Of a stretch of 64,000 nucleotides of DNA, positions 6,589 to 16,956 are shown one piece after another. The notes below the pieces were generated by a model. The model searched no databases. It was not told the origin of the DNA and saw only the letters and a list, made by a program, of their open reading frames with translations. Origin of the DNA: Agreia sp. Leaf210 (GTDB taxonomy: Bacteria > Actinomycetota > Actinomycetes > Actinomycetales > Microbacteriaceae); contig NZ_LMKK01000004.1 in assembly GCF_001421485.1 (NCBI RefSeq), positions 186,001-250,000 on the forward strand, written 5' to 3'. Position numbers and translations under genes: made by a program. How positions within the stretch are numbered: position 1 is the stretch's first letter; the number at the start of each line of letters is the position of its first letter.

Positions 6589-7668
6589 TCAGTGGTGGTG
6601 CTCGACCATCCACTCGGGGAAGGGATCCGGGTAGCTCGCCCACTCCTCCGGCCCCGCCGCCAGCTCCTCCGCCGTGAGCAGACACTCCGACAGCGCCGCC
6701 TCGAGCGCCATCTCGTCGAGGTCGGGGCCGAAGAACACGATCTCCTGTCCGATCGGCGAGTCCGAGCTCCAGCTGAGCATCTCGGTCGGCTCGAGATCGA
6801 GCACATTGCCAGCGGTCGCCCACGACCCGACCCGGCCGCCGCGCGTCGCCAGCCGCACGAATCCTCGCGAGCGCGCGATGCATCCGACGTTCTCCGGCGT
6901 CAGCCGCAGAGTCACGGCCGCGTGCAGGCGACCCGGGTGAAACGGTCGCGGGTCGCGGAACACGAACGTCGAACACCCAGACACCGGATGCGCGGGCGCA
7001 CCCTCCACGAGCTCCCGCTGCCAGCCCATCGACGCCCCGAGCCGGCGGGCGCGGCCGCGCACCAGCAACCCTGACAGCTGCCTTGCGTGCGCCACGTCGA
7101 AGGGCGTCAGCACGAGTGCCGACGGCGCCAGTCGCTCGAGAAGTGCGAGCACGAGCCGCGTGTCTTCTGCGGCAGCCGCGTTGGGAACATCGGTCAGCAC
7201 GATCATGCTGGCGAACTCGAGGCGAGAGGCCAGGCGCCCGGGCGAGGTGAAGTCGTCGATCTGGTCGGCCGCCTGGCTTGCCCAGCCGAGAAGCTGCTGG
7301 CCCACCTCGCGCACGGAGCTCACCGCCACCACGTCGCGAATGCCCACGGGAACGCGCGGCCGACGACCATCGAGCATGTGCTCGAGCACCAGGGCGATCT
7401 CGACGATGTCCGCACCCGGCTCCAGCACGACCACGGTGTTGCCCGTGAGGCCGTCGTCGTACTCGGATGCGAGTTGCTCGGCGAGCTCGACGGCGAACGT
7501 CGCGTCGTCATCGCCTCCGAGATCGAGTTCGGCGGGCGACTCCGAGGCTGCGCATCCACTGAGGATGGCGGCGATCTGCTCGGCGCGAAGACGATCACTC
7601 GACGAGACGAGCGTGACGGCCAGACCGGCGATACGGGAGATCGGGTGGCTGTCGGAGGACTCGTTCAT
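6589..7668 (-). CDS. CobW/YciC-like protein with degenerate GTPase motifs
   Basis: A 359-residue protein. The C-terminal part (about residues 235-345, FVFRDPRPFHPGRLHA ... GRVGSWATAGNVLDLEP) looks like the CobW C-terminal domain of putative zinc chaperones. The N-terminal half keeps the layout (AVTLVSSSDRLRAEQIAAIL, MIVLTDVP) but lacks both a GxxGxGK(T/S) P-loop and the CxCC metal motif. It is therefore probably not a working GTPase. It ends EHHH, a possible weak metal site. It is divergent from rpmJ across a Zur-like box at 7685-7699, only 17 bp from its start. Zur control of cobW-type genes next to alternative ribosomal proteins is well known; the exact function of this degenerate form is not. 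Confidence 0.8.
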   Translation of the reverse strand: MNESSDSHPISRIAGLAVTLVSSSDRLRAEQIAAILSGCAASESPAELDLGGDDDATFAVELAEQLASEYDDGLTGNTVVVLEPGADIVEIALVLEHMLDGRRPRVPVGIRDVVAVSSVREVGQQLLGWASQAADQIDDFTSPGRLASRLEFASMIVLTDVPNAAAAEDTRLVLALLERLAPSALVLTPFDVAHARQLSGLLVRGRARRLGASMGWQRELVEGAPAHPVSGCSTFVFRDPRPFHPGRLHAAVTLRLTPENVGCIARSRGFVRLATRGGRVGSWATAGNVLDLEPTEMLSWSSDSPIGQEIVFFGPDLDEMALEAALSECLLTAEELAAGPEEWASYPDPFPEWMVEHHH

Positions 7669-7684
7669 AGTGAGTTACTGTATG

Positions 7685-7699
7685 TGAGAATCGTTCTCA
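7685..7699. promoter_or_regulatory. Putative Zur box
   Basis: TGAGAA-TCG-TTCTCA is a 15-bp inverted repeat with perfect 6-bp arms. It sits between the divergent CobW-like gene (start 7668) and rpmJ (start 7719). Actinobacterial Zur sites are A/T-rich hyphenated palindromes of this kind. The flanking genes, a cysteine-free L36 and a CobW protein, are classic Zur targets. Confidence 0.75.
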
Positions 7700-7718
7700 A
7701 TAACAAATGGAGGCAGCT

Positions 7719-7841
7719 GTGAAGGTCCGCAATTCGATCAAGTCAATGAAGAAGATGCCCGGCTCGCAGGTCGTCAGACGGCGCGGCCGCGTGTTCGTGA
7801 TCAACAAGCTCAACCCTCGCTTCAAAGCCCGCCAGGGGTGA
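7719..7841 (+). CDS. rpmJ: 50S ribosomal protein L36, zinc-independent (type B) form
   Basis: A 40-residue protein beginning [19 protein letters not shown] and ending NPRFKARQG, the signature of type-B L36. It has no cysteine, so it lacks the zinc ribbon of the house-keeping L36. Such C-minus copies replace the zinc-binding copy when zinc is scarce, which frees zinc. GGAGG lies about 6 bp upstream of the GTG at 7719. The stop TGA overlaps the possible GTG start of the ABC permease (GTGA at 7838-7841), so the two are probably translationally coupled. A Zur-like box lies 20 bp upstream. Confidence 0.95.
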
Positions 7842-7882
7842 GAAGCGAAAGCTCCTCAGCGGTGAGAAGCGAAAGCTCCTCA
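7838..7882 (+). repeat. Tandem repeat forming two GAAA-tetraloop hairpins
   Basis: A 21-base unit occurs twice, at 7838-7858 and 7862-7882, with a 24-base period. Within each unit TGAGAAGC-GAAA-GCTCCTCA can fold into an 8-bp stem (one A-C mismatch) closed by a GNRA tetraloop. The first unit contains the rpmJ stop codon. If translated, it adds a repeated RSESSS to the N-terminus of the permease. Confidence 0.7.
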
Positions 7883-8959
7883 CGGATGACGAGCCTCGCC
7901 CAGCGCGAGGTCGTCTCGTCGATCAGACGTGGTCGACGACGCGGTGCCGTGATGATCGCTGCCCTGGTGAGTGCAGCGATCATCGCAGCGCTGGTCGCGG
8001 TGAGCATCGGCCCTGTGCCGATAGCCCCGGCGAGTGTCATCGGCATCATCGGCGACGGAGTCTTCTCGACCGGCCGCGGCGACTGGTCGGACTCCGCCCA
8101 ACAGATCGTGTGGGGCACCCGGCTGCCGCGTGTGGCGATGGCCCTGGTAGCAGGCGCGGTGCTCGCCGTGTCGGGAGCGATGCTTCAGGCGCTCGTGCGC
8201 AACAGCCTCGCCGACCCCTACCTGCTCGGACTCAACTCCGGCGCATCCACCGGCGTCGCCCTCGTCGTTCTCGTGATCGGCGGCGGCAGTGCCCTGCTGT
8301 TCTCCGGTGCCGCCCTCGCCGGCGCCATCGGCGCCGTGCTGCTCGTACTGATGCTGGCAGGCGTGGCCAATCGTCGAGGCCCACTACGGCTGGTGTTGGC
8401 CGGCCTCGCCGTCGGCTACGCGCTCAATGCCGCCACCAGCTTTCTCGTGTTCTCGAGCGACTCCCCCGAGGCGGCCCGTTCGGTGCTGTTCTGGCTGCTC
8501 GGGTCGCTCGCCGCTGTGCAACCGCTCGCCCTCGCGGCCGCCGCCGTCACCGCGGCCGTCGGTATCGGCATCCTGATCGTGATCGCGCCGATGATCGACG
8601 CGCTGGCCTCGGGCGACGACTCCGCCCGATCGGCGGGAATCGACCCCGAGCGCACCCGCATCGCCCTGATGGTGGGCGTCTCGGCGATGGTCGGCGTCAC
8701 CGTAGCCGCGGTCGGCGGTGTCGGCTTCATCGGCCTGGTCGTGCCCCATCTCGCTCGCCGATTGGCGGGCGGCCGTCACCGCGTCGTGCTGCCGATCTCC
8801 GCGCTCCTCGGCGCCATCCTGCTTGTCGCCGCCGACACCGTGGCGAGAACCGCCTTCGCTCCTCAAGAGATTCCCGTGGGCGTCATCACCGGAATCATCG
8901 GCGCCCCCTTCCTGCTCCTGCTGCTTCGCACATCCTCCTCACCCGCACACACCTCGTAG
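7838..8959 (+). CDS. FecCD/BtuC-type ABC transporter permease
   Basis: Up to 373 residues with about nine or ten membrane segments. It has the family signatures [20 protein letters not shown] and [17 protein letters not shown], and near the end [13 protein letters not shown]. It is the membrane subunit (homodimer) of a BtuCDF-type importer with the next two genes. The GTG at 7838 overlaps the rpmJ stop; the ATG at 7886 (357 residues) is an alternative that leaves out the duplicated RSESSS residues. Metal-chelate, heme or cobalamin are usual substrates of the family; the Zur context favours zinc or a zinc chelate, but that is inference. Confidence 0.9.
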
Positions 8960-8979
8960 CCCCCTCTAGAAAGAACCCG

Positions 8980-9990
8980 ATGAACACACCCCTCTTCCGG
9001 CGCCTGCCGGCGGCCCTCACCGTCACCGCGCTGACCCTCGCGGCGCTCAGCGCCTGCGCGCCGACCGCATCCGCGACCGACGTCGGCGGATCCACGAGCG
9101 ACTCCGCCGACGCGCCCATCACCATCGAGAACTGCGGATCGGAGGTCACTCTTGCGGCGCCCGCGAAGCGCATCGTTCTCGTGAACAACGACTCTCTGCC
9201 GAACCTCGAGGCGCTCGACGCCGTCGACCGCGTGGTCGCCCTCACCTCGACCGTGCAGCCGGGCCTCTATAAGGACTCCACCTACACGACCCTCGACTCG
9301 CTCGACCTGCTCTCGACAGAGAAGAACGCGACCGGCGGATCGATCGTGTCGCAGGAGAGCATCCTCGGAGCCAGGCCGGATCTGGTGATCGCGCCCGAGA
9401 ACGCGGTCGACCGAGCCGCCCTCGCCGCCAGCGGAATCGCCGTGTACACACCCAGCGCCTACTGCGCGAACCCCGGCCCCGAGCTCAGCCAACCGGCCAC
9501 CTTCGACCGCGTCTGGAGCGAAGTCCGCACCCTAGGCGCCCTCCTGGGCGAGAGCGATCAGGCCGAGCAGGTCGTCGCCCAGGGCACGGCGAGCCTCGGT
9601 TCAGAGGCACCGGATGCCGGAACCGCCGCCGCCCTCTACGTGTCATCCGGCGGGAGCGTTCTCTCGCCCTACGGCGGCCCGAGCATGGTGACGCCGGTCT
9701 TTGCGGCCGCGGGGCTGACCAACGTCTACGCCGACTCCCCCGAGCGGGTCTTCGACGCCAACATCGAGGACATCATCTCGCGTGACCCGGCCACCATCGT
9801 GCTGCTCTATTCCAGCGGCGAGCCGAAAGACGTCATCGACAGCTTCATGAGCGCTCCCGGGGTGTCCGCCCTGTCGGCGGTGCAGAAGGGACGCGTCGTA
9901 GCGCTGCAGTTCCCCTACACCGACCCGCCCAGCATGCTCTCGATCGCCGGACCGCAGCAGGTGCGCGGGCTTCTCTCGACACTGCCGTGA
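8980..9990 (+). CDS. ABC transporter substrate-binding lipoprotein, FecB/BtuF type
   Basis: A 336-residue protein. MNTPLFRRLPAALTVTALTL leads to a lipobox LSAC, so it is anchored outside the membrane. The two lobes follow, with typical KRIVLVNNDSLPNLEALDAVDRVVAL near the start and ARPDLVIAPE in the middle. This family hands chelated metal or corrinoid to a BtuCD transporter. It starts 20 bp after the permease and overlaps the ATPase start (GTGA, 9987-9990), so the three genes are co-translated. The protein has a Cys pair (C around residues 45 and 160) outside the lipobox, but no obvious His-rich zinc loop, which argues for a chelate rather than free zinc. Confidence 0.9.
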   Translation: MNTPLFRRLPAALTVTALTLAALSACAPTASATDVGGSTSDSADAPITIENCGSEVTLAAPAKRIVLVNNDSLPNLEALDAVDRVVALTSTVQPGLYKDSTYTTLDSLDLLSTEKNATGGSIVSQESILGARPDLVIAPENAVDRAALAASGIAVYTPSAYCANPGPELSQPATFDRVWSEVRTLGALLGESDQAEQVVAQGTASLGSEAPDAGTAAALYVSSGGSVLSPYGGPSMVTPVFAAAGLTNVYADSPERVFDANIEDIISRDPATIVLLYSSGEPKDVIDSFMSAPGVSALSAVQKGRVVALQFPYTDPPSMLSIAGPQQVRGLLSTLP

Positions 9991-10781
9991 TCGAAGCCGA
10001 GGCGGTGACCGTACGCATCGGCCGCCGGGTGCTGCTCGATGACGTCTCGTTCACCGCACAGACCGGGGCGGTCACCGGCATCGTCGGGCCGAACGGAAGC
10101 GGAAAGACCACCCTGCTGCGCGCCCTCGTTCGCGCCACGCCACTGTCGTCGGGCCGGATCGCTCTGGATGGCAACGACCTCCGCATCCGGCCCCGACGCT
10201 GGATCGCGCGCCACGTCGCCGAGGTGGGGCAGCGTAGCGAGCCCGACCCCTCGCTGCGCATCGTCGACGAGGTGTCGCTCGGCGGGCTCGCCGAGCACGG
10301 GGTTCTGCGCTCGGGCGGGGCCGCCTTCGACGACAGAGTCGCCGACGCCCTCGAGGCGGTCGAACTGTCGCACCGAGCGTTCGACCGGCTGTCGACCCTC
10401 TCAGGCGGAGAGCTGCAGCGGGTGGCGCTGGCGCGAGCGCTCGCCCACGGTGCGAGCCACGTTCTGCTCGACGAACCCACCAACCACCTCGACATCAGGC
10501 ACCGACTCGAGATCGTCTCGCTTCTGCGGCGCATCGCTCCGACGGTCGTGATCGTCTTGCACGATCTCGACCTCGCGGCCGAGGTGTGCGATCACGTCGT
10601 CGTTCTGCATCGCGGACGCGTCGCAGGCGCGGGGCGCCCGGCCGACGTGCTTCTGCCGCCGTTACTCGACGAGGTGTACGACGTGACGACCCACTCGCAT
10701 CAGGGGCCGGATGGGCGTGCGCGCCTCTCCTTCTCCCTGCCCTCGCCGAATCCCTCCCCTCGAACAAAGGAAACCGCATGA
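9987..10781 (+). CDS. ABC transporter ATP-binding protein (FepC/BtuD type)
   Basis: A 264-residue protein with Walker A GPNGSGKTT (about residues 33-41), signature LSGGELQRVALARAL, Walker B LLDEPTNHLD and the switch histidine (VIVLHDLDLA). It energises the permease and binding protein encoded just upstream. It starts with GTG overlapping the previous stop, and its own stop overlaps the methyltransferase ATG (ATGA at 10778-10781). It might also serve the iron importer at 36654-39621, which has no ATPase gene of its own; that is speculation. Confidence 0.94.
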   Translation: MIEAEAVTVRIGRRVLLDDVSFTAQTGAVTGIVGPNGSGKTTLLRALVRATPLSSGRIALDGNDLRIRPRRWIARHVAEVGQRSEPDPSLRIVDEVSLGGLAEHGVLRSGGAAFDDRVADALEAVELSHRAFDRLSTLSGGELQRVALARALAHGASHVLLDEPTNHLDIRHRLEIVSLLRRIAPTVVIVLHDLDLAAEVCDHVVVLHRGRVAGAGRPADVLLPPLLDEVYDVTTHSHQGPDGRARLSFSLPSPNPSPRTKETA

Positions 10782-11569
10782 CAGACCTCAGCATCCTCGA
10801 CACCGCACGCTCCCTCGCGGCCCGCTGGGACGCGCAGCAGACCGGCTACATCCGACACCGCGCCGAGCGCTTCGACACCATCGCCCGCGTCGTCGCCGCT
10901 GTCTGCTCCGACGTCGCCGAGCCGCGCATCCTCGACCTCGCCGGGGGCACGGGCTCGCTGGCTCTGCACGTTCTCGGTCACGTTCCGAACGGCCGCGCGG
11001 TCGTCGCCGACAAAGACCCGGCACTTCTGGCCATCGCCGCCGACCTCGCTGCCGACGATGCTCGCCTGCAGACCGCCGAACTCGACCTCGCCCACGCAGA
11101 CTGGCCCGAGCATCCGGCCATCGCGGCCGCGCCGTTCGACGCCGTGGTCTCGTCGACCGCGCTGCACTGGTTGAAGCCCGGAACCCTCGCCGATGTCTAT
11201 CGGGCCCTGCCCGATCTGATGCGCCCGGGCAGCATCGTCTTGAACGGCGACCACCTGTCGTACAGCGCTCGGCACGAGAGCACACTGGCTCGCGTGGCCC
11301 TCGCCGACGACGCGGCCATGCAGGAGTCGACATTCGCCGGCGACACCGACACCTGGGACGAGTGGTGGCAGGCCGTCGCCGATGCGCCTCGCTACGCCGA
11401 CGCCCTCGCGCGACGGTCGGAGGTCTGGGGAGCCGAACTGCACGAGGCGCCGCCGAAGGTCACGCTCGGCTTCCACCTCGAGAGCCTCGCGAGCGCCGGA
11501 TTCGCCGAGACGGGCACGGTCTGGCAGTACCTCGACGATCACGTGGTCTACGGGGTGCTCGCGCAATGA
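10778..11569 (+). CDS. Class I SAM-dependent methyltransferase
   Basis: A 263-residue protein with the SAM motif ILDLAGGTGSLALHVL, acidic strand-2 end VVADKDP, and SSTALHWLKPGTLADVYRAL (motif IV region). AAAGG lies 7 bp upstream of the ATG at 10778. It overlaps the ATPase stop by 4 bp and the oxidoreductase start by 4 bp (ATGA at 11566-11569), so it is firmly inside the Zur-linked operon. A methyltransferase is not part of an ordinary zinc importer. It may modify a metal-binding small molecule, but the substrate is unknown. Confidence 0.9.
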   Translation: MTDLSILDTARSLAARWDAQQTGYIRHRAERFDTIARVVAAVCSDVAEPRILDLAGGTGSLALHVLGHVPNGRAVVADKDPALLAIAADLAADDARLQTAELDLAHADWPEHPAIAAAPFDAVVSSTALHWLKPGTLADVYRALPDLMRPGSIVLNGDHLSYSARHESTLARVALADDAAMQESTFAGDTDTWDEWWQAVADAPRYADALARRSEVWGAELHEAPPKVTLGFHLESLASAGFAETGTVWQYLDDHVVYGVLAQ

Positions 11570-12702
11570 CCTCCCGAAGCGACATGGCTCCCACGTCCAA
11601 GCCCCTCGACGCGCTCGTCATCGGCGCCGGCCCGGCCGGAATCGGCACGGCGCTGGCCCTCTCGGCGGTCGACGACCTGCTGGTCGGCGTGGTCGATCGC
11701 GGTCAGATCGGTCAGACGTTCCTCGACTGGCCGACGAAGCAGACCTTTCTCACTCCCTCGTTCACGGGCAATGGGTTCGGCGCGACCGACCTCAACGCGG
11801 TGCACCCGCGCACGTCGCCTGCGTTCAGCCTGGGCGCCGACTACCTCACCGGGCCGCAGTACGCCAAGTATCTGCGCAGCGTGGTGAAGCACTTTCAGGT
11901 GCCGGTGCTGTCGGATACCGAGGTGACCGCGGTGGAGGCGGCCGGCGACGGGTTCACGGTGGCGACCTCGCGAGGACCGGTGTCCGCGCGCACCGTCGTG
12001 TGGGCCGGCGGCGAGTTCTCCGATCGCCCCGACGCGCGCCTGTCCGGCATCGGCCTCGCCGATCACTCCGCCACCCCCGAGGCCTGGGAGCCGCGCTCGG
12101 GCCGGGTGATCGTGATCGGCGGCTACGAATCCGGTATCGATATCGCCTGCCACCACGTCGAGCACGGCGCGCGGGTCACGGTCGTGGATGCCGGGAGCCC
12201 CTGGGATGCCGGCTCGGGCTCCGATCCCTCGTTCCGCCTCGCCCCGCGTTCACGAATGCGTCTCGACGCCGCCGCCGCGACCGGCCGGTTGACCCTGACC
12301 ACAGCTCACGCGAGCAGCATCAAACGCGACGGCGCCGAGTGGATCGCGAGCCTCGACAACGGCACGCGCATCCGTGCCGACTCTCGCCCGATCGCCGCCA
12401 CCGGTTTCGGCCCGGGTCTGGGCCCGGTCTCCGAGCTGTTCACGCTGCGCCGCGACGGGTGGCCCGAACTCGACGACGACGATCAGTCCACGATCACCCC
12501 CGGCCTCTTCCTGTCGGGTCCGGCGATGCGGCACGGTGCACTGAAGTTCTGCTTCATCTACAAGTTCAGACAGCGCTTCGCCCACGTCGCTCGTGTGATC
12601 GGCGAGGCGCAGGGCAAGGACTGCAGCGGCCTCGAGGAATGGCGCACCGCGGGCATGCTCACCGACGATCTGTCGTGCTGTGGAGTGGAGTGCGCGTGCT
12701 GA
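11566..12702 (+). CDS. FAD/NAD(P)-dependent oxidoreductase with Cys-rich tail
   Basis: A 378-residue protein. It begins with an FAD-binding Rossmann motif (ALVIGAGPAGIGTALAL) and has a second dinucleotide motif in the middle (VIVIGGYESGIDIACH) and the ATGFGP motif near the end, as in flavin monooxygenases and thioredoxin-reductase-like enzymes. The FCFIYKFRQRFAHVA segment is also typical. It ends SCCGVECAC, four cysteines in eight residues, which could bind zinc or another thiophilic metal. The ATG overlaps the methyltransferase stop. Together these genes suggest synthesis or modification of a chelator, or metal-responsive redox control; neither is proven. Confidence 0.85.
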   Translation: MTSRSDMAPTSKPLDALVIGAGPAGIGTALALSAVDDLLVGVVDRGQIGQTFLDWPTKQTFLTPSFTGNGFGATDLNAVHPRTSPAFSLGADYLTGPQYAKYLRSVVKHFQVPVLSDTEVTAVEAAGDGFTVATSRGPVSARTVVWAGGEFSDRPDARLSGIGLADHSATPEAWEPRSGRVIVIGGYESGIDIACHHVEHGARVTVVDAGSPWDAGSGSDPSFRLAPRSRMRLDAAAATGRLTLTTAHASSIKRDGAEWIASLDNGTRIRADSRPIAATGFGPGLGPVSELFTLRRDGWPELDDDDQSTITPGLFLSGPAMRHGALKFCFIYKFRQRFAHVARVIGEAQGKDCSGLEEWRTAGMLTDDLSCCGVECAC

Positions 12703-13688
12703 CCGCAACGCCTCGCCCCTGGGCTGTGACCGTACTCTTCGTCGCCGCCATCCTCGTCGGCAGCCTGACGGGCGCACTCGCTCCCGCTGCGGGTGGCGCC
12801 CTCGCGTCGATGGTGGATCCGTCGATCATGGTGCTGGTCGGGCTGCTCGTGTTCACGCTGCGGCTCGACAGCCTCGCCGCGCTGAAGCGTGCGCCTCGAA
12901 CGGTGCTGCTCGCACTGGCCTTCAACTTCGCCCTGGTTCCGCTGATCGCGTTCTGTCTGACCTCGCTCCTGCTGCCCGAGCAGGCGCTGCGATTGGGAGT
13001 GCTGATCTACTGCCTGTTCCCCTGCACCGACTGGTTCCTCGGCTTCACCCGCATGGCCGGCGGTGACACGACGACGGGGGCGGCGCTCATCCCGATTCAG
13101 ATGACGCTGCAGCTGGTGCTCTATCCCGTCTGGCTCGGCCTCTTCGGGGGCCAGCAGGTGGGGAGCTCGCCTGTCGAGATCGCTCCGACGCTCGTCACGT
13201 GGTTCGCCGTGCCGGCCGGGGTCGCGCTCGGAGCGCGACTGCTGCTGCGGCTGTGCCTCGCTGTCGCGACGCGGGAGCGCATCGTTGCCGCAGCAGACAG
13301 GCTGGTTCCCCTCGTGATCGCCGTGGTGATCCTCGGGCTGTTCGGCGGCAACGTCGGAACGATCCTCGCCGACCCGGCCTCGTTCGCGTGGGTGCTGCTG
13401 GTCGTCTTCCTCTTCTTCGTCGTCGTCTTCGTGATCGGCGAGGGAGTCGCCCGCCTGTTCGGCCTCGGCTATCCCGCGCGGGCGCTGCTGACCATGACGA
13501 CCTCTGCTCGCAACGCGCCGCTGATGCTCGCCGTCACGACCGTCGCTCTGCCTGATCAGCCCGTCGTCTACGCGGCGATCATCCTGGGCATGCTCATCGA
13601 GTTCCCGCACCTGACGGCTCTGACCCACTTGCTGCGTTGGCAGGAGAAGCAGCGCGAGAGAGCGAGCAGACCGAGCGTCAGCGTGTGA
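12696..13688 (+). CDS. BASS/ACR3-like membrane transporter
   Basis: A 330-residue protein with about ten hydrophobic segments. YCLFPCTDWFLGFTRMAGGD and the late TSARNAPLMLAV segment resemble the bile acid/Na+ symporter superfamily, including ACR3-type arsenite carriers. The GTG at 12696 overlaps the oxidoreductase stop by 7 bp; another in-frame GTG at 12690 is possible. It may export or import a small organic anion or metal complex linked with the enzymes upstream. Arsenic efflux is less likely because no arsenate reductase or ArsR gene adjoins it. An 83-bp gap follows before the next gene. Confidence 0.85.
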   Translation: MLTATPRPWAVTVLFVAAILVGSLTGALAPAAGGALASMVDPSIMVLVGLLVFTLRLDSLAALKRAPRTVLLALAFNFALVPLIAFCLTSLLLPEQALRLGVLIYCLFPCTDWFLGFTRMAGGDTTTGAALIPIQMTLQLVLYPVWLGLFGGQQVGSSPVEIAPTLVTWFAVPAGVALGARLLLRLCLAVATRERIVAAADRLVPLVIAVVILGLFGGNVGTILADPASFAWVLLVVFLFFVVVFVIGEGVARLFGLGYPARALLTMTTSARNAPLMLAVTTVALPDQPVVYAAIILGMLIEFPHLTALTHLLRWQEKQRERASRPSVSV

Positions 13689-13810
13689 GCAACCACGCCC
13701 AGCTACCGCACGGCATGAGCGCACCATGATGGGGTAGCCGAAACGACGGTCGACAGAGCGAGGAGCGAACGCTGAGCACGACACCCGCGTCGCACCCGAC
13801 ACTGCGCGAG

Positions 13811-14800
13811 TTGACCCGATCGGAGTGGCGCTGGACGCCCACGATCGGCATCGCCGCGGTGCTGCTTCTCGTGGCGATCAGAGTTTTGGCGCCGGCCGAG
13901 TGGACGTCGTGGATGACCGATCCGGCGAAAGACTTCGTGACACTCTCGGTGAGCGTCATCATCGAGTCGCTGCCGTTCGTCATCCTCGGGATCCTGCTCT
14001 CGGCGATCGTGCAGATCTGGCTGCCCGCGGGCTTTCTTCTGAGGAGATTGCCCAGGAACGCCGTGCTGCGGCGCAGCCTGATCTCTCTGCTCGGCGTGCT
14101 CCTGCCGGTCTGCGAGTGCGGCAACGTGCCGCTGACCCGCGGGCTGATCGTCAGTGGCCTCAGCGTCGCCGACTCCATGGCGTTCCTCTTCGCGGCACCG
14201 ATCATCAACCCGATCACGATCATCACGACGTACCAGGCGTTCGGCTGGAACGACGGCATCCTCATCAGCCGCATCCTCGGCGGCCTGGTCATCGCGAATC
14301 TCGTCGGGTTCATCTACAGCGCCCACCCGGCTCCGCAGACCCTGCTCACGCGAGGGTTTCAGGCAGCCTGCGCCGTCGATCCGCACGCCGAGCACGGCAC
14401 TCGAACGCGCCGCACCCTCATCAGCTTCGGGCGCGAGTCCGGGGCCATGATGCCCGCCCTGATCGTGGGCGCGGGTATCGCAGGGCTCATCCAGGTGGCC
14501 GTGTCACGCAACCTGCTGATCACGCTGGGCAGCAATCCCCTGTGGTCTGTGCTCGCACTCATGGCCCTCGCGTTCATCGTGGCCATCTGCTCGAACGTCG
14601 ACGCGTTCTTCATCCTCTCCTTCGGCTCCACCTTCCTACCCGGGGGCATCGTCGCCTTCCTCATCTTCGGGCCCATGATCGACATCAAGATGCTCGCGCT
14701 GATGCGCACGACCTTTACCGTGCGCACTCTGGTGCAGGTGAGCGTGCTCATCGCCGTCTGTGCCGCAGCCATCGGATTGGCGGTGAACCTTGTTTTTTAG
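13811..14800 (+). CDS. UPF0718 (DUF318) family permease
   Basis: A 329-residue membrane protein of about eight segments with the family motif LLPVCECGNVPLTRGL and the repeat-like FAAPIINPITI. A TTG at 13811 gives this length but has no ribosome site. An in-frame CTG at 13772 lies 6 bp after AGGAG, so the true protein may be 13 residues longer and start with a rare CTG. It pairs with the TIGR03943 protein, as in many Gram-positives (B. subtilis YcgR/YcgQ are relatives). The transported substrate of the family is not settled. Confidence 0.87.
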   Translation: MTRSEWRWTPTIGIAAVLLLVAIRVLAPAEWTSWMTDPAKDFVTLSVSVIIESLPFVILGILLSAIVQIWLPAGFLLRRLPRNAVLRRSLISLLGVLLPVCECGNVPLTRGLIVSGLSVADSMAFLFAAPIINPITIITTYQAFGWNDGILISRILGGLVIANLVGFIYSAHPAPQTLLTRGFQAACAVDPHAEHGTRTRRTLISFGRESGAMMPALIVGAGIAGLIQVAVSRNLLITLGSNPLWSVLALMALAFIVAICSNVDAFFILSFGSTFLPGGIVAFLIFGPMIDIKMLALMRTTFTVRTLVQVSVLIAVCAAAIGLAVNLVF

Positions 14801-14807
14801 TCGCCTC

Positions 14808-15608
14808 ATGACGCGCTGGAAGGGGCTGGCTCTCACCCTGCTCGCGGCGATCGCCACAGTCTGGCTCGGGGTCACGGGCCAGCTCGGTCTGTACATCAAC
14901 CCGCGCTACTACGTGTTCACCCTGATCATGGCCGGCATCGCGTTCGTGCTCACGATCGGTGCGCTCCTCGTCATTCCGGGGCCGCGCGAAGACGACGAGC
15001 ACGATCACGTCGGGGCCGATGGGCCGGATGGGCGCGGGCCCGACGCCCACGACGTCGCCGGGGCCGGTCGCCGCCGCCCGTTGCTCGCGTTCGGCGGATC
15101 GCTCACCGCGCTCGTCATCGTCGCCGCCGCGGCCGTCGCCCTGCTCGTCGTGCCCCCGAGCTCGCTCACATCGGCGGCGGTCGAACAGCGCAGCCTCAAC
15201 GGCTCGTCGAACAGCCTCGCGAACGCCGGGCCGCCGCCGGGCACGTCGGACGACACCTCCGCGTACTCGGTCAAGGACTGGGCCGCCCTCATCCGCCAGG
15301 GCGCGAGCGCCGACGACCTGAGTGGCCGGACGGCAACCCTGACGGGATTCGTGACTCCCGACGCCGACGATCCAGACAACGTCTTCTTCGTCGCCCGCTT
15401 CGTGGTGACGTGCTGCGCGGTCGACGCGCAGCCTGTCGGGGTTCCGGTCTACTCCCCGGGCTGGGCGAGCAGCTACGCCACCGACAGCTGGGTCACGGTG
15501 ACCGGCGAGTTCGAGGCGAACCCCAGCGTGCTCAGCGCCGCCACGACCGTCGTACGCCCCGACAGCCTCACCGCCGTCGACCAACCCTCCGAGCCCTATG
15601 TCTATTGA
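14808..15608 (+). CDS. TIGR03943 family putative permease subunit
   Basis: A 266-residue protein. Two hydrophobic segments (about residues 3-25 and 35-60), a charged His/Asp-rich loop (REDDEHDHVGADGPDG), a further hydrophobic segment (about 95-115) and a soluble C-terminal domain with the family's FVVTCCAVDAQPVGVPV. The double Cys is conserved in the family. The ATG at 14808 lies 7 bp after the permease stop; a TTG at 14790 would overlap it. The Asp/His-rich loop could bind metal. This gene is nearly always next to an UPF0718 permease, as here. Confidence 0.87.
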   Translation: MTRWKGLALTLLAAIATVWLGVTGQLGLYINPRYYVFTLIMAGIAFVLTIGALLVIPGPREDDEHDHVGADGPDGRGPDAHDVAGAGRRRPLLAFGGSLTALVIVAAAAVALLVVPPSSLTSAAVEQRSLNGSSNSLANAGPPPGTSDDTSAYSVKDWAALIRQGASADDLSGRTATLTGFVTPDADDPDNVFFVARFVVTCCAVDAQPVGVPVYSPGWASSYATDSWVTVTGEFEANPSVLSAATTVVRPDSLTAVDQPSEPYVY

Positions 15609-16956
15609 CACCGCCGGCCGCAGGTTCCGCCGGCTGCTCTACGGCAGCATCACGATCGTGTCGGTCGTGGCTGCCGTTCTGGTGGTCGCCAACTTCTCGC
15701 ACGGGCCAGAGCTGCAGTCGGCTCAGATCAACGTGAACACCGCGGTCGAACGCTCGGGGCAGCGCCTGCTGCTGCAGGCCAACGAGCCTCTCGATCCGTC
15801 GGCTGCCGACACCCTCACCGTGAGCCCGGCGGCGGCGACCACCGCAACGGTCGACGGCGACACCATCGATGTGCAATTCACCGGGATCCTCAGCTACAAC
15901 ACCCGCTACACCGTGACCGTGCCCGAGGTCCGCAGCGTCGCGGCCGGTAGCGCGTCCACCATCAGCTACACCTTCACCACGGCGAATCCCACCACCTACT
16001 TCTTGTCGCCCGCCACCGGGTCGCCCGGGTCGCAGGTGAGCGATGCCGTTCTGGCCGCACCCGTCGGCGGAGGCGCACCGACACCGGTCTACCAAGCCCC
16101 GCGCATCCGGCAGTTCGTGGCGCTCGGCGACACCCTCGTCGTCGATACCGTGAACGACGACGCGACCGATGCGCTCACGATCGTCTCGCTGACCGGCGGC
16201 GCTCCCATCGTTGTGAATCTCGCGGGCGCGGGCACCATCACCAGCCTCAAGGCGAACCCGGCAAGCAAACTCTTCGGCTACACGTTCACACCGCAGCAGT
16301 CTGCCCACTACGAAGCGCAACCCGACCAGCTCTACGTCTACGACATCACGCGCGGCAACGACTACTCGATCCCCATCACGGGCACCGATTTCGAGGTGCT
16401 GACGGCGAAGGACTGGATGTTCATTCCGGGCACCACCTCGCTCGTCGCCCAGACAGAGGGTTCGGACCTGGTGCTGGTCGACACCCTGGGTGAACGAGAC
16501 GGCACCTCGGGCCCCGCCCCGATCGGGCACGCAGACGAGCTCCTCGGGTTCGTCCCCACCACGAAGACGCTGATCACGGCAGACGCGGGCAGCCGTGTCG
16601 CGACCGACTTCGGGCAGACGGCAAATCCGAGCAGCGCATTCCCGACGGTGGCGGGCGACATCGGCTCCGCCGCGGCTGTCGTGAATGCCGGGGGAACCAC
16701 CCTGCAGATCCAGGACTCGGGCTCTGGACCGGGTACGGCCGTCGCCAAGGTCGACGCGAGCGGCAGCAGCATCATCTTCGCTCTCGACACCCCCGAGTCG
16801 GCGGGTCACGCCGTCACGAGCGTCTGTGTCGCACCCAACGGTCTCTACGCCGCGGTCACGACCGACGCACAGCACATCACCTACGTCGACCTCTCGAACG
16901 GCACAGCGCTCGGCACCGTCGACGGCCGCGACCCGAACTGGTGCGCGTCGCGCTGA
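15598..16956 (+). CDS. Membrane-anchored Ig-like plus beta-propeller protein
   Basis: A 452-residue protein. A basic N-terminus and one hydrophobic helix (about residues 13-32) suggest a signal anchor. An Ig-like segment follows (ANEPLDPSAADTLTVSP ... YNTRYTVTVPEVRSVAAGSA, similar to Big_5 domains), then a long set of short beta repeats ending SVCVAPNGLYAAVTTDAQHI, typical of a seven-bladed propeller such as YncE-like proteins. The ATG overlaps the previous stop by 11 bp, so it is co-translated. It probably lies on the outer face of the membrane as a partner of the permease pair. The role is unknown. Confidence 0.82.
   Translation: MSIDTAGRRFRRLLYGSITIVSVVAAVLVVANFSHGPELQSAQINVNTAVERSGQRLLLQANEPLDPSAADTLTVSPAAATTATVDGDTIDVQFTGILSYNTRYTVTVPEVRSVAAGSASTISYTFTTANPTTYFLSPATGSPGSQVSDAVLAAPVGGGAPTPVYQAPRIRQFVALGDTLVVDTVNDDATDALTIVSLTGGAPIVVNLAGAGTITSLKANPASKLFGYTFTPQQSAHYEAQPDQLYVYDITRGNDYSIPITGTDFEVLTAKDWMFIPGTTSLVAQTEGSDLVLVDTLGERDGTSGPAPIGHADELLGFVPTTKTLITADAGSRVATDFGQTANPSSAFPTVAGDIGSAAAVVNAGGTTLQIQDSGSGPGTAVAKVDASGSSIIFALDTPESAGHAVTSVCVAPNGLYAAVTTDAQHITYVDLSNGTALGTVDGRDPNWCASR

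Follow-up and report, generated by a model that had tools for sequence, protein, structure and literature searches.

The described systems closest to the locus reported here include the following. According to the accessible part of one study (PMC7438024), those actinomycete opine-zincophore clusters whose sole importer is of the FecCD type carry the gene of an additional methyltransferase, which belongs to PF13649 in 8 of them. In Staphylococcus aureus, the zinc-limitation genes in the portion available of PMC5480029 include NWMN_2481 (COG0523), NWMN_2482 and NWMN_2483 (flavin adenine dinucleotide (FAD) oxidoreductase). Their last-column values, 'Yes (43.2)', '(83.1)' and '(152)', are read here as calprotectin induction. 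In Corynebacterium glutamicum, Zur controls cg0795, an oxidoreductase gene divergent from the COG0523 gene cg0794, as stated in the accessible text of PMC2823685.

The locus lies at 6589-16956 of the window, which is the whole 64,000-nucleotide stretch analysed from Agreia sp. Leaf210 (contig NZ_LMKK01000004.1; G000:C4:186001-250000; genome size 3.54 Mb). It comprises a Zur-type box, a cobW-like gene, a gene for ribosomal protein L36, an importer with a methyltransferase (module A), a flavoprotein with a carrier (module B) and a third block of three genes. We consider, with a probability of roughly 0.6, that this is a Zur-repressed zinc-starvation operon built from separable modules; module A would serve chelate import and module B would be an independent zinc-starvation unit. 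The parts of the operon are of known kinds in a new combination. The observation on this run in a preliminary description was confirmed in part, and its interpretation was supported in part.

The Zur-type box and the gene run

The box TGAGAATCGTTCTCA at 7685-7699 (no strand assigned) is located between the cobW-like gene (6589-7668, minus strand) and rpmJ (7719-7841, plus strand), as the preliminary description had stated, and is the only perfect match within the window. When up to 3 mismatches were allowed, 11 matches were found in the window vs 10.25 expected; these are at chance level, and therefore the perfect match alone carries meaning. The TGANAANNNTTNTCA pattern occurs at 5 sites in the whole genome, and its reversed control at none. 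One of the other boxes stands ahead of a gene that passes the AztA threshold (227.8 bits vs 220). At another, the first gene encodes an AztC/AdcA-like binding protein and the next ones encode an ATPase and a Fur-family regulator, with no score above a curated cut-off. The remaining two head a second FecCD importer of the same genome (L046) and the gene of a 627-residue protein with no NCBIfam match (L048:3831).

A scoring matrix was built solely from these four other boxes, with the window box left out; the window box scores 23.8 under it. A site of at least 19 was found near the flavoprotein gene, here called OX, in 16/16 unique actinobacterial OX loci. These sites lie directly before OX in 10 loci and before an L36 gene preceding OX in 6. 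Over 292,296 bases, the matrix gave 30 matches of at least 15 vs 0 for the permuted matrix. In L007, a boxed L36 gene and OX are about 0.9 kb apart. The Zur box of the gene run is well supported, and a Zur operator at the promoter is predicted from the sequence. Repression by Zur and transcription as one unit appear probable on the basis of this box and the gene layout.

The rpmJ gene encodes, as had been proposed, a cysteine-free L36; it is of type B (PRK00831.1, 76.5 bits vs cut-off 70). There are three L36 genes in the genome, one with 3 cysteines and two cysteine-free. The second cysteine-free gene is at G000:C3:635546-635665 (L085), on a contig from which the strict-pattern box is absent. 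The genes downstream of rpmJ follow in a tight co-directional run on the plus strand, in the order first described, and the spacings from permease to carrier range from a 7-nucleotide overlap to a 20-nucleotide gap.

The CobW-like protein is degenerate. CobW_C is its sole match, the GxxxxGK[ST] P-loop and the CxCC motif are both missing, and the protein does not qualify as a COG0523 zinc GTPase. Among its homologues adjoining L36 (n=11, of which L010 is a fragment), only that of L002 has the P-loop and none (0/11) has CxCC. One PF02492 match was found in the Agreia genome (23.8 bits vs cut-off 20.7). The CobW-like protein further resembles the ribosome-hibernation MRF model, at a score under the cut-off (71 bits vs 375).

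Two tandem 24-nucleotide repeats (7838-7885, plus strand), absent from the preliminary account, lie in the stretch that separates the L36 stop from the ATG of the permease. Each forms a GAAA-tetraloop hairpin, and the folded pair has an energy of -22.1 kcal/mol. No further copies were found elsewhere in the genome. Among the relatives, one copy is present in Agreia sp. VKM Ac-1783 and none in A. pratensis or in a third Agreia genome (G077). The repeats could be an attenuator or a processing site.

The importer and methyltransferase of module A

Module A is composed of a FecCD-type permease (PF01032; 7886-8959, alternative start GTG 7838), a Peripla_BP_2 binding lipoprotein (8980-9990), an ATP-binding cassette (ABC) ATPase assigned by profile match (9987-10781) and a class I S-adenosylmethionine methyltransferase (PF13649/PF08242; 10778-11569), all on the plus strand. 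PF01497 (FecB/BtuF type) is the only Pfam match of the binding protein, which places it outside the ZnuA family of ZnuABC/AdcABC. The argument that this protein had 'lost' a zinc-binding His loop fails, because two different protein families were compared. PDB searches with the binding protein, the methyltransferase and the carrier of module B returned general relatives only.

The module shares with the actinobacterial opine-like zincophore clusters a FecCD permease, a Peripla_BP_2 protein and an ABC ATPase adjoining a class I methyltransferase, as far as the accessible part of PMC7438024 describes them. Unlike those clusters, it sits in an L36 operon, and no match to the models of the opine dehydrogenase CntM or of nicotianamine synthase (NAS) was found in the genome. 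A related set occurs in G394 (L078), where a binding protein, permease, ATPase and methyltransferase are encoded in the vicinity of CntM (651.7 bits); this methyltransferase shares 37% identity over 265 residues with that of the window. The assignment of the importer to the chelate-uptake class, which had been suggested before, is supported by this comparison.

The methyltransferase was found in 4/150 genomes of the family, own included (E 1e-30), and a FecCD importer adjoins it in 4/4. The gene arrangement of the window recurs in two other Agreia loci (L004 and L008). In G077 (same genus, L055), the four genes of module A are accompanied by the CobW-like gene, the box and L36; the 18 kb read contain no OX, carrier, UPF0718 or TIGR03943. 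In G026 (another genus, L056), the box and all four genes of module A are present and L36 is missing, and G033 (L057) has the importer and methyltransferase. In L055, L056 and L057, the importer and methyltransferase occur without the oxidoreductase and the carrier. In Nonomuraea (L087:5000-10602), UPF0718 and DUF1980 open a single row that continues with the binding protein, methyltransferase, permease and ATPase, and the third block therefore meets module A there too. The methyltransferase match in Streptomyces (L088) has no importer adjoining.

The OX flavoprotein and its membrane partners

OX (11566-12702, plus strand) is a Pyr_redox_3 flavoprotein (FAD oxidoreductase) with a C-terminal CCGVECAC tail; it shares 95% identity with its counterpart in Agreia sp. 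VKM Ac-1783 and 90% with that of A. pratensis. Across 27 aligned members, no variation was seen at G20/G22/G25/G27, G185/G186/E188/S189/G190, C329, C372, C376 and C378, and hardly any at C371. The tail CC-x(2-5)-C-x-C is conserved in 48/49 members (46 in clean frame, 2 with stops in frame); the exception is Gulosibacter L013, in which the first cysteine is missing. OX of the window shows both this tail and the full-length match that define the family. Among PDB entries, S. aureus 3D1C comes first in similarity to the OX fold; it matches the OX profile over its full length (384 bits), has the tail SCCEVSCTC and is likely NWMN_2483. The C. glutamicum and S. aureus pairs cited above also combine a zinc-regulated oxidoreductase with an adjoining COG0523 GTPase, cg0795 being likened by its description in the available text. 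They differ from the window in that its OX partner is an ACR3-like carrier and its CobW protein lacks the P-loop. The ArsO monooxygenase was considered for OX and rejected (NF040505, 39.9 bits vs cut-off 425).

OX loci were collected by a scan with exact peptide patterns, which therefore samples the family unevenly. It found 42 loci, of which 14 were actinobacterial; the other 28 come mostly from Verrucomicrobiota of the Opitutae type and from haloarchaea, and one is on a Paenibacillus plasmid. Three further loci were added, one of them a repeat, so that the unique actinobacterial loci number 16 against 28 from elsewhere; L001 and L009, which represent a single contig, enter this count as one locus. 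OX was the sole query, and its neighbours are therefore unselected; yet the loci share kinship and the events are not independent.

The carrier lies within 150 bp of OX in 16/16 actinobacterial loci and in 0/28 others. A FeoB-like gene shows the reverse distribution: it was found within 3 kb of OX in 0/16 actinobacterial loci and in 26/28 others (24 within 150 bp), being absent from this range in L029 and L038. CobW genes lie within 5 kb of OX in 10/16 actinobacterial and 21/28 other loci. Moreover, HisI and CysS genes occur within 7 kb of OX in 10/28 and 5/28 non-actinobacterial loci, respectively. OX and the carrier occur without the methyltransferase in 14/16 other actinobacterial loci.

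The SBF/ACR3/BASS-like carrier of the window (12696-13688, plus strand) has a P-C-x-D-W-F-L stretch that is invariant in 16 sequences (L003 is truncated). The carrier resembles the ACR3 arsenite exporters and BASS symporters in its SBF fold and in a PC motif, which we take to correspond to the ACR3 motif in the presumed transmembrane segment 4. It differs from them in that it is below both cut-offs (42.6/282.8 for the ACR3 model TIGR00832 and 37.7/326.3 for BASS), has a Zur box and is tied to OX. The FeoB-like partners of OX keep a GFGCNV stretch, a CxxC motif and one more cysteine.

The annotated neighbourhoods of OX in Paracoccus, Haloferax, Klebsiella and Paenibacillus contain Zur-like repressors, COG0523, cysS, hisI, folE2, dksA or an extra rpsN. 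Plasmid searches with OX (E 1e-40) gave 523 records, 485 of them from Klebsiella. The one region read of a Klebsiella IncHI1B plasmid (L082) is a compact zinc-starvation island with OX, in the order carbonate dehydratase, folE2, dksA, GTPase, repressor, cysS, OX, FeoB-like, zigA, hisI and repressor. In Paracoccus, aztABC is near a repressor, a GTPase, OX and cysS. Paracoccus also encodes a second FAD protein, which is thioredoxin-reductase-like (L079:9809-10690) and follows a second GTPase in the neighbourhood of OX and cysS. OX of Haloferax neighbours a GTPase, a ribosomal S14 gene, a FeoB-like gene and hisI; in Acaryochloris, it occurs with FeoB-like, zigA and Fur-family genes. The Paenibacillus locus consists of a GTPase gene, rpsN, OX and a FeoB-like gene, with TCGTAATTATTACGA 52 nucleotides before the GTPase gene; this sequence is presumably the Bacillus Zur consensus. 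Palindrome scans upstream of OX outside the actinobacteria found the Bacillus-type Zur box in Paenibacillus only, and scattered palindromes elsewhere.

The third block, rival explanations and meaning

The third block, also on the plus strand, contains an UPF0718/ArsP_1 permease (13811-14800), a TIGR03943/DUF1980 protein (14790-15608; 156.9 bits vs cut-off 88.8) and a 452-residue protein (15598-16956). The start of the permease is uncertain. The reported 83-bp gap after the carrier holds with a possible CTG start at 13772; the first ATG/GTG/TTG is TTG 13811, which leaves 122 nucleotides. A propeller had been suggested for the 452-residue protein, and this label was not borne out: its Big_5 match is marginal (23.2 bits, below the cut-off of 23.6), and its AlphaFold2 model is unusable (mean predicted local distance difference test score 35). 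The trio was found together in 20/20 loci fetched (20 of 34 match rows in 28/60 genomes, with two extra copies from the Agreia genome itself). Five of the 20 score above the random 95% box score, and a Fur-family gene adjoins in 3/20. No mention of DUF1980 with COG0523, or of TIGR03943, was found in the open-licence literature, nor was any mention of DUF1980, TIGR03943, a permease or a propeller found in the accessible part of PMC10957091.

In the proposed mechanism, Zur would leave the box at 7685-7699 when zinc falls, and the run would then be read rightwards and the cobW-like gene leftwards. The cysteine-free L36 would take over from the zinc-binding form and spare zinc. Module A would bring in a zinc chelate, probably a product of other organisms. 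The methyltransferase might work on the chelator in the cytosol, e.g. in metal release or ligand tagging, which is a guess. OX would be an enzyme that uses NAD(P)H and FAD and may bind or relay zinc or a thiol through its cysteine tail. It would work together with a membrane transporter, ACR3-like in actinobacteria and FeoB-like elsewhere.

Several observations weigh against this reading. CobW is absent within 5 kb of OX in 6/16 actinobacterial and 7/28 other loci, and OX is rare in the lineage (4/150 family genomes; 1/394 class genomes, its own, with 5 candidates scored per genome). Importer and methyltransferase lack a strict box in L057, L078 and L087. Strict boxes were found at 2/20 trio loci, one of them upstream; with so few boxes or Fur-family neighbours, the zinc link of the third block is weak, and its place in the Zur regulon may be local. 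The tail region of OX has low confidence in the AlphaFold2 model. No sigma-70-like site was found in a scan that expected 0.5, and either the 122-nucleotide gap before UPF0718 or the hairpin repeats at 7838-7885 could split the transcript.

Two other explanations concern module A. The preliminary description combined importer, methyltransferase, oxidoreductase and carrier into one pathway that makes, exports and recovers a small zinc chelator. The genes do form one co-directional run, the importer and methyltransferase look like opine-zincophore clusters, the carrier could serve as exporter, and a biosynthetic route of another kind might exist elsewhere in the genome. However, the two halves occur apart in L055, L056 and L057 and in the 14/16 loci mentioned above, and outside actinobacteria the oxidoreductase has a FeoB-like transporter as its partner, which speaks against its part in a chelator pathway. 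CntM (PF10100) was found in 0/150 family genomes, own included, in a search whose controls were all silent; its model finds 1/394 class genomes. The Agreia genome gave no match to NAS (PF03059, which bacterial CntL may escape) or to the condensation domain (PF00668) of nonribosomal peptide synthetases. On these results, own synthesis by the CntM and nonribosomal routes was rejected and a NAS route appears unlikely; uptake of foreign chelates is therefore likelier than synthesis, and the single pathway is very improbable. Import of a cofactor (F420-0 or a corrinoid) instead of a zinc chelate was suggested by the best models of the permease, ATPase and binding protein, which are all putative F420-0 models (TIGR03869, TIGR03873 and TIGR03868). 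All three scored far below their curated cut-offs (255.7/437.35, 229.6/372.4 and 110.5/392.4 bits, respectively), and identity as a F420-0 transporter was rejected on this ground. TIGR03868 is likewise the top model for the binding protein in the CntM cluster (96.4 bits, below cut-off) and therefore cannot separate the two. Zur boxes are present at L055 and L056, and cofactor import is improbable. Import by module A of chelates made by other organisms remains our preferred inference.

The role of OX is more tentative. OX and its membrane partner might be an undescribed zinc-acquisition or trafficking pair of bacteria and archaea, in which the NAD(P)H-cycled tail would draw zinc or thiol-bound zinc from the cysteine-bearing transporter and hand it to COG0523 chaperones; we regard this as possible, though doubtful. 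OX could also replace a zinc enzyme and so spare zinc, its cysteine tail sensing zinc or acting as a redox relay, since it lies among CysS, HisI, FolE2 and DksA-type stand-ins at Klebsiella, Paracoccus and Opitutae loci. But a zinc enzyme of matching chemistry is not apparent, the fixed partner of OX is a transporter, and four conserved tail cysteines would be odd for a zinc-free substitute; this seems rather unlikely. Alternatively, OX might reduce disulfides of low-molecular-weight thiols in the manner of YpdA/Bdr and so restore zinc-buffer thiols, with the carrier or FeoB-like protein moving the metal or a thiol complex. Of the neighbours of OX in sequence and in fold, YpdA is the best characterised (PDB ranks 2-5), and OX shares the Pyr_redox_3 fold with the bacillithiol disulfide reductase YpdA/Bdr. 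However, the score (TIGR04018, 69.5 bits) is far under the cut-off of 339.9, by which identity with YpdA was rejected, and the cysteine tail belongs to OX. Residue 24 in the GAGPAG turn of OX is Ala, where YpdA presumably carries Cys. Moreover, the hosts of OX (haloarchaea, Bacillota and actinobacteria) differ in the thiols they use, and a thiol reductase is unlikely.

The core flavoprotein-transporter pair is conserved, and its function was not described in the open-licence literature searched. If OX and its partner handle zinc, they would account for a zinc-starvation step that has been seen in transcriptomes (S. aureus, perhaps C. glutamicum) and is so far unexplained. Among the plasmids searched, those of Klebsiella commonly carry OX, which is also present in haloarchaeal and Opitutae zinc islands. 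The module of importer and methyltransferase lets one ask whether the methyltransferase is for chelate uptake or for chelate synthesis. The exchange of FeoB-like and ACR3-like transporters beside the same flavoprotein provides a direct genetic test of the role of the pair. If OX and its partner do traffic zinc, this would be a flavin-driven handling of a metal that is not itself redox-active.

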